Source: Pseudovibrio japonicus (lineage in GTDB: Bacteria; Pseudomonadota; Alphaproteobacteria; Rhizobiales; Stappiaceae). Taken from it: a stretch of 64,000 bases of DNA. The translations under genes were made by a program, and so were the position numbers. Below, piece after piece: positions 21,872 to 26,366 of the stretch. The notes beneath the pieces were generated by a model. The model was not told where the DNA came from. It worked only from the letters and a program-made list of their open reading frames with translations, and made no database searches. The stretch covers positions 186,001 to 250,000 of the forward strand of contig NZ_BMXE01000003.1 of NCBI RefSeq assembly GCF_014651595.1, written 5' to 3'. Within the stretch, counting starts at the first letter, position 1. Each line of letters starts with the position of its first letter.

Positions 21872-22153
21872 TAGTTCACTCCTTCGCCTTGTCAGGCATA
21901 CGTTGCATGACTCAACCTAGGCGGAGAGGTGTTTTAATGGGTGAAGGGAACCGGTTGGATTTGAGGAGACTTTTCCTGAAGGTGCCGTTTGGCAGTTAGC
22001 GAAGGTGCAAAATGGACATTTTGAGGGTGTGCAACTTCTGATCACGAAAAGCATCACGGGGGCTTTACTTGAAGTTTAAGATTTTTAGTCGCTAAATCAG
22101 AGGTCAATACCGGTCGATATGACCGTAACCCTTACTTGGTTGGAGATGGCAAG

Positions 22154-23128
22154 ATGAACATTATTCATAGGCCTGAATGGATTATTCCGGAAAGAGAAGC
22201 GACACCTGAGGATGTGTTCTTCAACCGCCGCAGGTTTATGAAGGGTGTCGGCGCTGTTGGTCTTGGATTGGTTGCGGGTGGACCCGGCCTAGTCACCAGA
22301 GCGTTTGCGCAGGATGGTCCGGATCCAACCCTTAATCTTTATCCAGCCACGCGAGACCCTGACTTTACCCTGAATCGCGCGATTACGCCTGAGAGTGTGA
22401 CTTCGGTTTATAACAACTTCTATGAGTTCGGCTCGCAAAAGACGATCTCAGGTGCAGCGCAGGCTTTGAAAATCCGCCCGTGGGCGATCACCATTGACGG
22501 GATGGTCGATAACCCTCAGACAATCGACTTTGATGATCTGGTGCGCAAGATTCCGTTGCAGGAGCGCCTTTATCGTCACCGCTGTGTTGAGGCGTGGGCG
22601 ATGGCTGTGCCGTGGACCGGTTTTCCGCTTGCCGATCTGGTTAAGTATGCCGGCCCGCAAAGTGGTGCCAAGTATGTTCGCTTCGAGACCTTCGAGGATT
22701 CTGATGTGGCCAGCGGGCAGCGTCAGTTCTGGTATCCATGGCCTTACGTTGAAGGTGTGACCATGGATGAAGCTATGAACGAAATGGCTTTCATTGCGAC
22801 TGGCATCTACGGCAAGCCGCTTTTGAAGCAGTATGGTGCTCCAATCCGACTGGTGCTGCCGTGGAAGTATGGCTTCAAGTCCATCAAGTCCATTGTGAAG
22901 ATGACCTTAACTGATCAGCGTCCTGTCGGGTTCTGGGAGTCTGTTGGGCCGGGTGAGTATGGCTTTTGGGCCAATGTGAACCCTGACGTGCCACATCCCC
23001 GCTGGTCACAGGCGACCGAGCGCCTGCTGGGGACGGATGAGCGGGTTCCAACGCAGCTCTTTAATGGCTACGCAGAACAGGTGGCGTCGCTTTATACGGA
23101 TCTGCAAGGAGAGAACCTTTACAGGTAA
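22154..23128 (+). CDS. msrP: Protein-methionine-sulfoxide reductase, molybdopterin subunit
   Basis: A 324-residue periplasmic enzyme of the sulfite-oxidase fold that repairs oxidised methionines in exported proteins. A Tat signal is visible (Asn-Arg-Arg-Arg-Phe-Met-Lys at 24-30, then a hydrophobic stretch ending Ala-Phe-Ala). The Moco cysteine is Cys144 in Tyr-Arg-His-Arg-Cys-Val-Glu-Ala-Trp, and the C-terminal half has Arg-Leu-Val-Leu-Pro-Trp-Lys-Tyr-Gly. ATG 22154 follows GGAGATGGCAAG. The haem membrane partner gene msrQ, normally next, is not in the following kilobase. Confidence 0.93.
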   Translation: MNIIHRPEWIIPEREATPEDVFFNRRRFMKGVGAVGLGLVAGGPGLVTRAFAQDGPDPTLNLYPATRDPDFTLNRAITPESVTSVYNNFYEFGSQKTISGAAQALKIRPWAITIDGMVDNPQTIDFDDLVRKIPLQERLYRHRCVEAWAMAVPWTGFPLADLVKYAGPQSGAKYVRFETFEDSDVASGQRQFWYPWPYVEGVTMDEAMNEMAFIATGIYGKPLLKQYGAPIRLVLPWKYGFKSIKSIVKMTLTDQRPVGFWESVGPGEYGFWANVNPDVPHPRWSQATERLLGTDERVPTQLFNGYAEQVASLYTDLQGENLYR

Positions 23129-23526: not shown

Positions 23527-23797
23527 TACCTCGGATAATTGCCAATAGGTATGTTCCGATAAGTAAAGGATGCAAGCCGATTTGTAATTTCGTTGAATGA
23601 TGGTGGTTAGAAACCACTGTTCGAGTATTTACCTAGTGAATTTATAGTTAATTCTGGTGAGTTTTGCAGAAACTACTCGTTTTTGGGATTCGGGAATACC
23701 TAGATTCTTATGGGTTTTCCCTTGGTGGTGATCGGCAATAGCCTGATGAATCCTAATGCCTCTGCGTGTAGCAATGCGTGTTGCTTTCTCAGGTTGC

Positions 23798-24007
23798 CTA
23801 AAAAATAAGCGACCTCCGGTTCGTTATTGGGCAGAGCGTTTTGGCTGCCTTTTGGCGATATCTTTTGCGCTCCAATCGACCTTTCCAACCTTCTGCGTTC
23901 TGCCTGATGCGGGCCTGTAGTTCTTGCTCGATTTGTTGTGGTGTAGTGGGCGTAAGCGGGTCTTTCTTGACCATTAGGTCAAGGAAACGCTTGGTCACCC
24001 CGGGCAT
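23798..24007 (-). CDS. Doubtful small basic protein
   Basis: An open frame of 69 codons, or 58 from an internal ATG at 23974. The composition is plausible and protein-like: Thr-Pro-Gln-Gln-Ile-Glu-Gln-Glu-Leu-Gln-Ala-Arg, then a run of Lys and Arg. Against it, no ribosome binding site is visible at either start, and it sits just past the sRNA terminator. It may be a remnant of a longer gene. Confidence 0.3.
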   Translation of the reverse strand: MPGVTKRFLDLMVKKDPLTPTTPQQIEQELQARIRQNAEGWKGRLERKRYRQKAAKTLCPITNRRSLIF

Positions 24008-24012
24008 TAGGC

Positions 24013-24042
24013 AAAAAAAAACCGGACCATGCGGTCCGGTTT
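24013..24042 (-). terminator. Terminator of the candidate sRNA
   Basis: On the minus strand, perfect stem AAACCGGACC / GGTCCGGTTT with loop GCAT, followed by an unbroken run of T. Confidence 0.85.
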
Positions 24043-24155
24043 AGAAGTGATGAATGATAAAGCACCTAATGGGTGCAATCACCTTCCAGAGGGGAACAGC
24101 TGATCGAGTGTTGAGGTCACTGGGAGGAGAGGTGTGACAACAACTGATCAACAGC
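24013..24155 (-). ncRNA. Candidate trans-acting small RNA with anti-Shine-Dalgarno loop
   Basis: A transcription unit of about 143 nt read from the minus strand. It has a promoter (-35 TTGTGA, 17-base spacer, -10 ATATAT). A long hairpin is built from CAGCTG...ATC...GTTG and CAAC...GATCAGCTG arms, capped by stem GTCAC/GTGAC (24116-24138). The 13-nt loop reads ACCTCTCCTCCCA, complementary to ribosome binding sites. A second single-stranded CCCCTCT, a small GCACC/GGTGC hairpin and a U8-9 terminator follow. These are hallmarks of alphaproteobacterial Hfq sRNAs such as AbcR (alpha-r15) and the cuckoo/alpha-r14 group; which, if either, cannot be settled here. It lies about 310 bases downstream of an LsrB/VtlR-like lysR gene. 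Confidence 0.65.
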
Positions 24156-24220
24156 TGGTGTATATATGCGGTGCAGTGATGAAATCACAATCCTATATTT
24201 TTGCATTGCAGCTATGCATT
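24156..24220 (-). promoter_or_regulatory. Promoter and LysR-type site for the candidate sRNA
   Basis: The minus strand reads TTGTGA (24185-24190), 17 bases, then ATATAT (24162-24167), giving a start near 24155. Upstream, TGCAT-N7-ATGCA (24202-24218) is centred near -55 and includes a T-N11-A (24206/24218) LysR box. The position fits an activator site; binding by the neighbouring LysR protein is inference. Confidence 0.5.
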
Positions 24221-24317
24221 TTTCATATGTCTGGCAGGCTCGAAATTCCTTGTCAGATTTGATCAGTAACTTACAGATAACTCTGCGTTAGGTGTTGTCA
24301 TTTCGGGAGATTAAGGC

Positions 24318-24393
24318 AAAAAAGAGCCTCCCGGGTTGTCCACGAGGCTATCAAAAAGAGCGGGATTTCTTTTGTTTGGTGGTGCAAATCCCG
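24318..24393 (-). terminator. Tandem terminators downstream of lysR
   Basis: Read on the minus strand, CGGGATTT / AAATCCCG followed by CTCTTTTT (24353-24393), then AGCCTC / GAGGCT followed by CTTTTTT (24318-24349). Together they should insulate the sRNA unit from trxB-lysR transcription. Confidence 0.65.
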
Positions 24394-24464
24394 GAAATGA
24401 TTCTCTTTAGGTGGCTAAAAATGCCATGCCAGTGCGTCCGAAAAGGTCAGCTTCTTCGGTTGCC

Positions 24465-25376
24465 CTAGTGGGTCCAGCGCTCGGCGTAGGAGACGAGGAA
24501 GTCTCTGAAGGCGGTGACGCGGGCGGTGTTCTTCAGCTCGGATGGATACACAAAATAGGTATCAAAGCTTGGTAGCTCTTCCTGTGTGACTGACATTACG
24601 CGTTTGATGCCCGCACCGGGTTCCACCATGTAGTCCGGCAAAATAGCGATCCCGACGCCGGTCTGAACGGCCTTTTTTATGCCGGAGAGGTTGTTTACGC
24701 GCAGGGAGACGTCGCGGCGCTCGCCATTGGGTAGGCCAGCGGTTGCCAGCCAGTTCATAGCACGCAGGTAGGAGGCCATGTTGTCGCCAATGGTGATCAG
24801 GCGGTGGTGATCCAGATCGTCAATGGTGCTTGGGCTGCCGTAGCGCTCAATGTAGGCGGGGGAGGCGTAAACGTGGAAGTGCACCGTAAAGAGCTTACGC
24901 TGGATAAGGTCCGGCTGTGTTGGCTGGCGCAGTCGGATGGCCACATCGGCTTCGCGCATGCCCAGATCCAACTCGTCATCCATGCAGATGATGTCCAGAC
25001 GCATCTCCGGGTAAAGGTCCACGAACTCGTTGACGCGGGCGGTTAGCCATGTGGAGCCGAGGCCTACAGTGGTGGTGACACGGAGCGTGCCGGTTGGCTT
25101 TTCTTTGGTGTCTGTGAGCCGGGACTGGACGGTTTCCAGCTTTTGCAGAACTTCGCGGGCGGTTCTATACAGAAGCTCGCCCTGTTCTGTCGGAATCAGC
25201 CCGCGGGCATGACGATGGAAGAGGGGGACACCCAGCTCGGCTTCCAGCGCGCTGACCTGACGGCTAACGGCTGACTGGCTCATGTTGAGAGCTTCGCCTG
25301 CGTGGGTAAAGCTTCCTGCCTGTGCAGCTGCATGGAAAATTCGCAGCTTGTCCCAATCTAAAGAACGGCCTGGCAT
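24465..25376 (-). CDS. LysR family transcriptional regulator, LsrB/VtlR-like
   Basis: A 303-residue LysR regulator with an N-terminal winged helix-turn-helix (Phe-Thr-His-Ala-Gly-Glu-Ala-Leu-Asn-Met-Ser-Gln-Ser-Ala-Val-Ser-Arg-Gln, about 23-40) and a periplasmic-binding-like effector domain. In Sinorhizobium, Agrobacterium and Brucella the gene beside trxB is lsrB/vtlR, which controls redox and envelope genes and AbcR-type sRNAs. Position and sequence style match that group (established family knowledge plus inference). It contains a single cysteine, Cys131, whereas rhizobial LsrB uses several for redox sensing. It is 27 bases downstream of trxB and probably co-transcribed. Confidence 0.85.
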   Translation of the reverse strand: MPGRSLDWDKLRIFHAAAQAGSFTHAGEALNMSQSAVSRQVSALEAELGVPLFHRHARGLIPTEQGELLYRTAREVLQKLETVQSRLTDTKEKPTGTLRVTTTVGLGSTWLTARVNEFVDLYPEMRLDIICMDDELDLGMREADVAIRLRQPTQPDLIQRKLFTVHFHVYASPAYIERYGSPSTIDDLDHHRLITIGDNMASYLRAMNWLATAGLPNGERRDVSLRVNNLSGIKKAVQTGVGIAILPDYMVEPGAGIKRVMSVTQEELPSFDTYFVYPSELKNTARVTAFRDFLVSYAERWTH

Positions 25377-25403: not shown

Positions 25404-26366
25404 TTATTCGGCTGCTTCGGCTTCAGTTTCCAAAGCTGCCAGGTAGCGTTCTGCTTCCAGCGCAGCCATACAGCCCATTCCTGCGGCTGTTACAGCCTGA
25501 CGGTACTGTTCATCAGTCACGTCGCCAGCGGCATATACACCGGGAATGGATGTCTGAGTTGAATCAGCTTCGGTCCAAATGTAACCGGATTCTTTCATCT
25601 TGACCTGATCTTTAACAAGATCAACCGATGGTGCGTGTCCGATTGCGATGAAGACACCGTGGGTAGACATCTCGCTGACTTCACCGGTCTTGCGGTTTTT
25701 CAGGCGTACACCGGTGACAACAGCTGGATCTTCGGTGCCGAGAATTTCTTCAACCTGAGTGTCCCAAACCACGTTGATTTTCTCGTTCTTGAAGAGGCGG
25801 TCCTGAAGGATTTTCTCTGAGCGCAGCGCATCACGGCGGTGAACCAGAGTGACCTTGCTTGCGATGTTTGCCAGGTAGAGTGCTTCTTCAACAGCGGTGT
25901 TGCCGCCGCCAACCACAACAACTTCCTTGCCACGGTAGAAGAAACCGTCACAGGTTGCACATGCGGACACACCGCCAGCCTGATACTTCTCTTCGGATGG
26001 CAGGCCGAGCCATTTTGCCTGTGCGCCGGTTGCAATGACGAGGGCATCTGCGGTGTAGATGGTGCCGCTGTCGCCTTTCAGCTCAAACGGGCGTTTGGAC
26101 AGGTCAGCTTCCAAAATGGTGTCGTATTCGATCTTGGTGCCGACGTTTTCTGCCTGCTTGCGCATTTCTTCCACAAGCCAAGGACCCTGAATTGGATCGG
26201 CAAAGCCTGGGTAGTTTTCAACGTCGGTGGTGATGGTCAGCTGACCGCCGGTCTGCACACCTGTGACCAGAAGCGGTTCCAGCATTGCACGCGCGCCGTA
26301 GATCGCTGCGGTGTAGCCTGCAGGACCGGATCCTACGATCAAGAGTTTGGTGTGCTTAACAGTCAT
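25404..26366 (-). CDS. trxB: Thioredoxin-disulfide reductase
   Basis: A 320-residue FAD/NADPH flavoprotein that reduces thioredoxin. FAD motif Gly-Ser-Gly-Pro-Ala-Gly at 12-17, redox-active Cys136-Ala-Thr-Cys139-Asp, NADPH motif Gly-Gly-Gly-Asn-Thr-Ala-Val-Glu near 153-160, and C-terminal Tyr-Ala-Ala-Gly-Asp-Val. It lies between elm1 (64-base gap) and lysR (27-base gap) on one strand, suggesting an operon whose last gene regulates redox responses. Confidence 0.96.
   Translation of the reverse strand: MTVKHTKLLIVGSGPAGYTAAIYGARAMLEPLLVTGVQTGGQLTITTDVENYPGFADPIQGPWLVEEMRKQAENVGTKIEYDTILEADLSKRPFELKGDSGTIYTADALVIATGAQAKWLGLPSEEKYQAGGVSACATCDGFFYRGKEVVVVGGGNTAVEEALYLANIASKVTLVHRRDALRSEKILQDRLFKNEKINVVWDTQVEEILGTEDPAVVTGVRLKNRKTGEVSEMSTHGVFIAIGHAPSVDLVKDQVKMKESGYIWTEADSTQTSIPGVYAAGDVTDEQYRQAVTAAGMGCMAALEAERYLAALETEAEAAE

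Follow-up and report, generated by a model that had tools for sequence, protein, structure and literature searches.

AbcR small RNAs, known from plant symbionts and from Brucella, turn down genes for nutrient uptake. For A. tumefaciens the gene order trxB, vtlR, abcR1, abcR2 has been published (PMC7486931). In S. meliloti, AbcR1 was reported to carry two pairing motifs, one in its 5' loop (CUCCUCCC) and one between the first and second hairpins (UUCCCCUC), and an LsrB box of the form GCAT-N3-TG-N3-T was placed at -61 to -49 (PMC8844928); a TGCA-N6-GCAT form was described for the nfeR1 promoter (PMC10746234). As for the regulator, S. meliloti and B. abortus are reported to share cysteines C144 and C273 of A. 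tumefaciens LsrB, the second of which is reported to matter for peroxide resistance (PMC11975290).

The stretch analyzed here, referred to below as the window, comprises 64,000 nucleotides of Pseudovibrio japonicus, and its features are collected in Table 1. We consider it highly probable that the locus described carries the single AbcR1 (alpha-r15) small RNA (sRNA) of Pseudovibrio, activated by VtlR/LsrB, held by Hfq and silencing uptake mRNAs. In a literature search that left subscription journals largely outside, nothing was found that joins AbcR1 with the Stappiaceae, and the papers joining Pseudovibrio with sRNAs were, judged by title, on other subjects.

Table 1. Position, strand and supporting evidence of the features at the sRNA locus (window coordinates).
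Feature	Position	Strand	Evidence
msrP, methionine-sulfoxide reductase catalytic subunit, convergent	22136..23128	plus	NF003767 416.1 bits, above cut-off
AbcR1/alpha-r15-type sRNA, about 144 nt	24013..24156	minus	Rfam ar15, covariance model R1, fold
Intrinsic terminator, 10-bp stem and 9 T	24013..24042	minus	terminator scan, fold
Second hairpin region (predicted)	24043..24088	minus	minimum-energy fold of window sequence
aSD2 UUCCCCUC	24089..24096	minus	linker joining hairpin 1 and hairpin 2
aSD1 CUCCUCCC	24122..24129	minus	inside 13-nt apical loop 24133-24121
Promoter, -35 TTGTGA (24190-24185), -10 ATATAT (24167-24162), 17-nt spacer	24162..24190	minus	sequence
Predicted VtlR/LsrB operator GCATAGCTGCAATGC	24203..24217	minus	-61 to -47 from inferred start
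Two terminator-like hairpins, lysR-sRNA gap	24319..24393	minus	fold z -2.9 and -2.4
VtlR/LsrB-type LysR regulator, 303 aa	24465..25376	minus	Pfam HTH_1, LysR_substrate; adjoins trxB
trxB, thioredoxin reductase, upstream neighbour of lysR	25404..26366	minus	TIGR01292 412.7 bits, above cut-off

Anatomy and family of the small RNA

The 5' end of the sRNA was inferred from the -10 box, and the ar15 match likewise begins at 24156. The RNA begins at its 5' end with a long hairpin that carries the 13-nt pyrimidine loop; a single-stranded linker leads from it to a predicted second hairpin, and the terminator follows. An earlier note on this DNA had described a long stem with a C/U-rich loop and a terminator ending in about nine T, and both are there: the loop ACCUCUCCUCCCA caps the stem of the 5' hairpin, the 9-T run follows the terminator stem, and the terminator folded alone gives a z of -5.56. 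As a whole, 24160-24013 has a folding energy of -52.1 kcal/mol, the shuffles a mean of -30.4 (z -6.45), and 0/200 shuffles were as good. The second pairing site, UUCCCCUC, had been overlooked in that note and sits in the part of the sRNA that is conserved best. Both features of alpha-r15, aSD1 in the loop of the 5' hairpin and aSD2 in the linker, are therefore present. The second hairpin predicted for the window sequence is absent from the consensus structure of the homologue alignment.

Scanned as a whole at the curated thresholds of Rfam, the window gave only a tRNA. In a permissive scan of 23700-24500 the ar15 model (RF02345) matched with 34.4 bits and an E of 3.5e-5 (5.2e-5 in a scan of the own genome). 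In this search against Rfam, which had been proposed as a check, the match runs over the entire model (1-112 of 112) but its score lies below the gathering cut-off of 40. At E values up to 10 the same model also matches 12 of 14 control genomes, with 0 matches above the cut-off. Among 16 lysR loci scanned with Rfam, the ar15 cut-off was passed by four (Brucella sp., Nitratireductor, Mesorhizobium and Aquibium) and by none of the six Stappiaceae loci. In all four, the covariance model R1, which was built from 26 homologues with the window sequence included, matches at the identical place, and this coincidence ties the window RNA to accepted members of ar15.

It was also considered that the RNA might belong to alpha-r14 (NfeR1/cuckoo), the other LsrB-activated anti-Shine-Dalgarno family in S. 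meliloti, since the ar14 model (RF02344) matches as well, with 28.1 bits and an E of 0.0035, and activation of NfeR1 by LsrB has been reported (PMC10746234). This assignment is very improbable, as the score is far under the ar14 cut-off of 58.8 and under the ar15 score. Moreover, alpha-r14 is described as carrying CCUCCUCCC in each of three hairpins, whereas the window RNA has one CU-rich loop only and its second motif is that of alpha-r15; the coinciding R1 and ar15 places in the loci tested already favored ar15. The AbcR identity that the note had suggested is supported by the covariance matches, by the anatomy of the motifs, by the place of the operator and by synteny.

The 26 aligned homologues come from Pseudovibrio, from other members of the Stappiaceae and from three more families, and the window sRNA, itself part of the resulting model, scores 139.8 bits with R1. 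UCCUCCC of aSD1 and GUUCCCCUCUG of aSD2 are each invariant in 26/26 aligned homologues, figures that apply to the set without locus L014, which is missing from alignments A1 and A2 since the motif search did not pick it up. In this locus of an uncultured Pseudovibrio (genome G009) aSD2 is altered and reads TTCCCCAATTG, which may reflect natural loss of a pairing site or an error of sequencing. Both-sided changes were found in 12 of the 28 consensus pairs, the covariation score was reached by 0/500 shuffles, and 95.6% of cells were paired compared with 23-48% when partners were slid; the count of further pair types (25) did not exceed that of the shuffles (mean 26.5). The covariation support is located in the 5' hairpin and in the terminator, where 3 of 8 pairs changed on both sides, and helix 3, a short element of the consensus, showed no such change. 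Conservation of loop and terminator among relatives, which had been named as a check on the sRNA, was thus borne out by the invariant UCCUCCC and by compensatory changes that keep the 5' hairpin and the terminator.

R1 gave one strong match in each of 25/25 Stappiaceae genomes (at least 86 bits, the next best being 33), and one match each at E 1e-6 in 20/20 genomes of a partly overlapping draw, so that the two draws together comprise 34/34 distinct genomes with one strong homologue. Across the order, 136 of 397 genomes have an R1 match at E 1e-6. When 80 loci of named records were chosen by their LysR gene, R1 matched with at least 26 bits in 63, two of them on the opposite strand, and in 11 of the 12 Stappiaceae; in Roseibium marinum (L045) the LysR gene is present and no R1 match was found within 4 kb. 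Six further R1 matches in the own genome all score at most 25.9 bits. The next ar15 match there (L002, 27.1 bits) was rejected as a second AbcR copy, looking by eye like a terminator behind a coding stretch, as were R1 matches L336-L338 in relatives (30-33 bits), which are terminator-like and lack UUCCCCUC. In a genome of another family (G170, contig C22) a second AbcR-like copy, L340, keeps GTTCCCCTCTGG and is without the loop motif CTCCTCCC. A single copy sidesteps the redundancy that complicates AbcR genetics elsewhere.

Promoter, operator and neighboring regulator

The -35 and -10 boxes at 17-nt spacing that the earlier note had read are present, and CATAT in the promoter is invariant in 26/26 homologues, but a generic sigma-70 scan returned no promoter in 23900-24500, and the promoter call therefore rests on conservation. 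The palindrome TGCAT-N7-ATGCA was found as described, at 24218-24202. Counted from the inferred start, GCATAGCTGCAAT of the window is an exact copy of the published LsrB box and lies, as in S. meliloti, at -61 to -49. Within 110 nt upstream, the published box occurs in 38 of 62 related promoters (0.7% of shuffled promoters), the dyad GCAT-N8-TGC in 52 of 62 (0.9% of shuffled promoters), and one or the other in 56 of 62 as counted from the listing; since the dyad was defined on 26 of the 62 and the sequences are related, these occurrences are not independent events. The set of 62 excludes L075 and L100, whose matches are on the other strand, and weaker ones such as L092.

As a fuller operator, GCAT-N8-TGC allows other VtlR targets to be searched for more precisely. 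Genome-wide the VtlR-like dyad pattern has 18 matches at 15 places, compared with 1 for the reversed pattern, although the two may differ in base-step content, and 10 of the 15 places are inside predicted genes. One further dyad of the own genome, GCATAGCAGCCATGC (L296:1501-1515, contig C7 near 212742), stands 11 nt upstream of TTGACA-N16-TATATT and in front of a small hydrophobic ORF, and is a candidate for a further VtlR target. Two more intergenic palindromic VtlR-like dyads were seen at positions 1501-1515 of L286 and L293.

The LysR protein of the window shares 62% identity with the one encoded next to the Rfam ar15 member in Brucella sp. (L080). At E 1e-80 each genome yields one match to it, and at E 1e-85 it occurs in 366 of the 397 genomes of the order. 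Within flanks of 1.5 kb, a trxB match lies beside the LysR gene in 25 of 27 LysR-matching loci, one of which (L001) is the window's own place, the exceptions being L026 and L030. Pfam domains, identity to the L080 protein and adjacency to trxB uphold the view that the neighbor is VtlR/LsrB-like. By eye, an msrP-like ORF is also found beside the sRNA in L026, L027, L030 and L031; the gene order suggests a trxB-lysR-sRNA-msrP block.

Placement of the sRNA beside the lysR gene, another claim of the note, is supported in the family: in Stappiaceae the sRNA lies within 1 kb behind lysR and on the same strand in 29 of 34 genomes, and within 4 kb in 33 of 34. The exceptions have it 1.2-3.6 kb behind lysR (G392, G011, G357 and G013) or on another contig (G304). 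In other families of the order the sRNA is within 1 kb of lysR in 66 of 78 measured genomes and away from it in 12. These distances come from 29 strong-match genomes and 83 more, and with 15 genomes that are shared they cover 98 of the 136 genomes of the order with an R1 match. In Brucella L071 (B. pituitosa), with a LysR protein 63% identical, neither R1 nor ar15 matched within 4 kb of lysR.

Because the sRNA of the window is on the same strand and only 312 nt behind lysR, the RNA could be thought to be merely the terminator and 3' leader of lysR, with no independent gene. We regard this as scarcely tenable, since the sRNA has its own conserved promoter and operator, and two hairpins with T runs intervene. 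The latter had been described as two terminators; both do fold, but the second is weaker than claimed, its loop being 17 nt, and a terminator scan allowing loops of 3-8 lists neither. Furthermore, the sRNA is set apart from lysR by two transposase-like ORFs in G011 and by about 3.6 kb holding other ORFs in G013, and it persists with its promoter and the box in both genomes, which argues that the sRNA is a separate unit.

At the positions equivalent to C144 and C273 the window regulator has V145 and V276, and its one cysteine is unrelated. Both cysteines were found in 20 of 81 regulators (the window and 80 relatives), neither in 13/13 Stappiaceae regulators, and 7 of these 13 are without any cysteine. 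As the pair is missing, the thiol switch of the known LsrB cannot be the signal here, and a metabolite in its place is a guess. It is conceivable, though we hold it slightly less probable than its opposite, that the Stappiaceae keep an older VtlR-AbcR circuit with one sRNA, no redox cysteines and a non-thiol, probably metabolite, signal. If this were true, the lineage of Brucella and the rhizobia would have acquired the cysteine switch and the duplicated sRNA at a later time. A cysteine-free regulator also lets one ask what VtlR senses.

Predicted targets and proposed mode of action

Duplex energies were computed for 1223 predicted genes in 1.6 Mb (about a third of the genome) and the window. 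The top 60 ATG genes by pairing energy held no excess of transporters over a G-rich matched or a random set; matches of ABC_tran and BPD_transp_1 came to 5 among these 60, to 7 for the matched control and to 2 for the random set, each tally covering the first 25 families. Since livK is a known AbcR target, the families Peripla_BP_6 (8 genes) and SBP_bac_5 (15 genes) were tested. The 8 genes for binding proteins of the leucine/isoleucine/valine (LIV) type pair more strongly than do the 984 genes of the background (aSD1, p 5e-4; aSD2, p 2e-4), an excess that was weaker but present against shuffled seeds (p 0.02 and 0.013) and after allowing for 16S pairing (p 0.0097 and 0.0065), all of these values being uncorrected for two families and two seeds. 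Two of the 8 genes (L306 and L307) showed little complementarity, and the 15 SBP_bac_5 genes had no excess.

Of 16 genomes searched, 12 had a match to the LIV-type gene L300; in its leader the aSD2 complement AGGGGAAC is conserved in 9 of these 12, the own included, is absent in two distant genomes and has a one-base change in one; this is supporting evidence only, as a Shine-Dalgarno site is conserved anyway. Before ATG, the aSD2 complement GAGGGGAA is not commoner than its reversed 8-mer (18 compared with 26; 10 of the former and 12 of the latter are followed by an ORF of at least 70 aa), a comparison that is uninformative.

The absence of transporter enrichment from the unbiased prediction, like that of SBP_bac_5, would fit an RNA that is AbcR by descent but whose main targets in Stappiaceae are not transporter mRNAs, or whose driver is not VtlR. 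Control of S. meliloti AbcR1 by LsrB is itself disputed, being denied in PMC7486931 and affirmed in PMC8844928. Nevertheless, this possibility appears unlikely, given that the excess complementarity of the LIV-type genes persists against shuffled seeds and that the operator is kept in most of the related promoters.

We therefore retain an AbcR1 under VtlR control that acts on uptake genes, and infer the following course. VtlR/LsrB, encoded just upstream, would bind the GCAT-N8-TGC dyad at about -54 and activate the sigma-70 promoter, from which the 144-nt RNA would be transcribed, probably to be held by Hfq via its poly-U end. The 5' loop, with CUCCUCCC, and the linker, with UUCCCCUC, may then pair with the ribosome-binding sites of uptake-system mRNAs, which would block translation, for example of LIV-type binding proteins.

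Comparison with described systems

The window RNA shares an anti-Shine-Dalgarno loop with NfeR1 (alpha-r14), and LsrB activation is reported for NfeR1 of S. meliloti. NfeR1 differs in its three CCUCCUCCC hairpins, and the accessible part of its description notes no UUCCCCUC linker motif. The likeness to S. meliloti AbcR1 (RF02345) extends to the place of aSD1 in the 5' loop and of aSD2 in the linker (PMC8844928), and to the intrinsic terminator, the position of the LsrB box and the sigma-70 promoter (PMC8844928, PMC3712013). Unlike that system, the window genome yielded no second AbcR copy, its RNA scores below the Rfam cut-off, and its regulator is without the conserved cysteine pair.

Sequence comparison with the VtlR-AbcR2 locus of Brucella (L080) likewise places the sRNA behind a VtlR-type gene, with 70.7 bits for ar15 and the published box at -59 in the promoter. 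The regulator of L080 differs in having two cysteines, and in B. abortus a second AbcR is reported on the other chromosome (PMC7486931). The order trxB, vtlR, abcR is that of the A. tumefaciens VtlR-AbcR locus, which differs in its two tandem abcR genes, of which only AbcR1 is described as VtlR-dependent (PMC7486931); the window has one. The arrangement of regulator and sRNA is thus already known from A. tumefaciens, and the window adds a further member of a known family, by which the AbcR circuit would be extended to Pseudovibrio, Stappia and Roseibium. The window locus differs from the known cases in having one copy, a more complete operator dyad and a regulator that lacks the redox cysteines.
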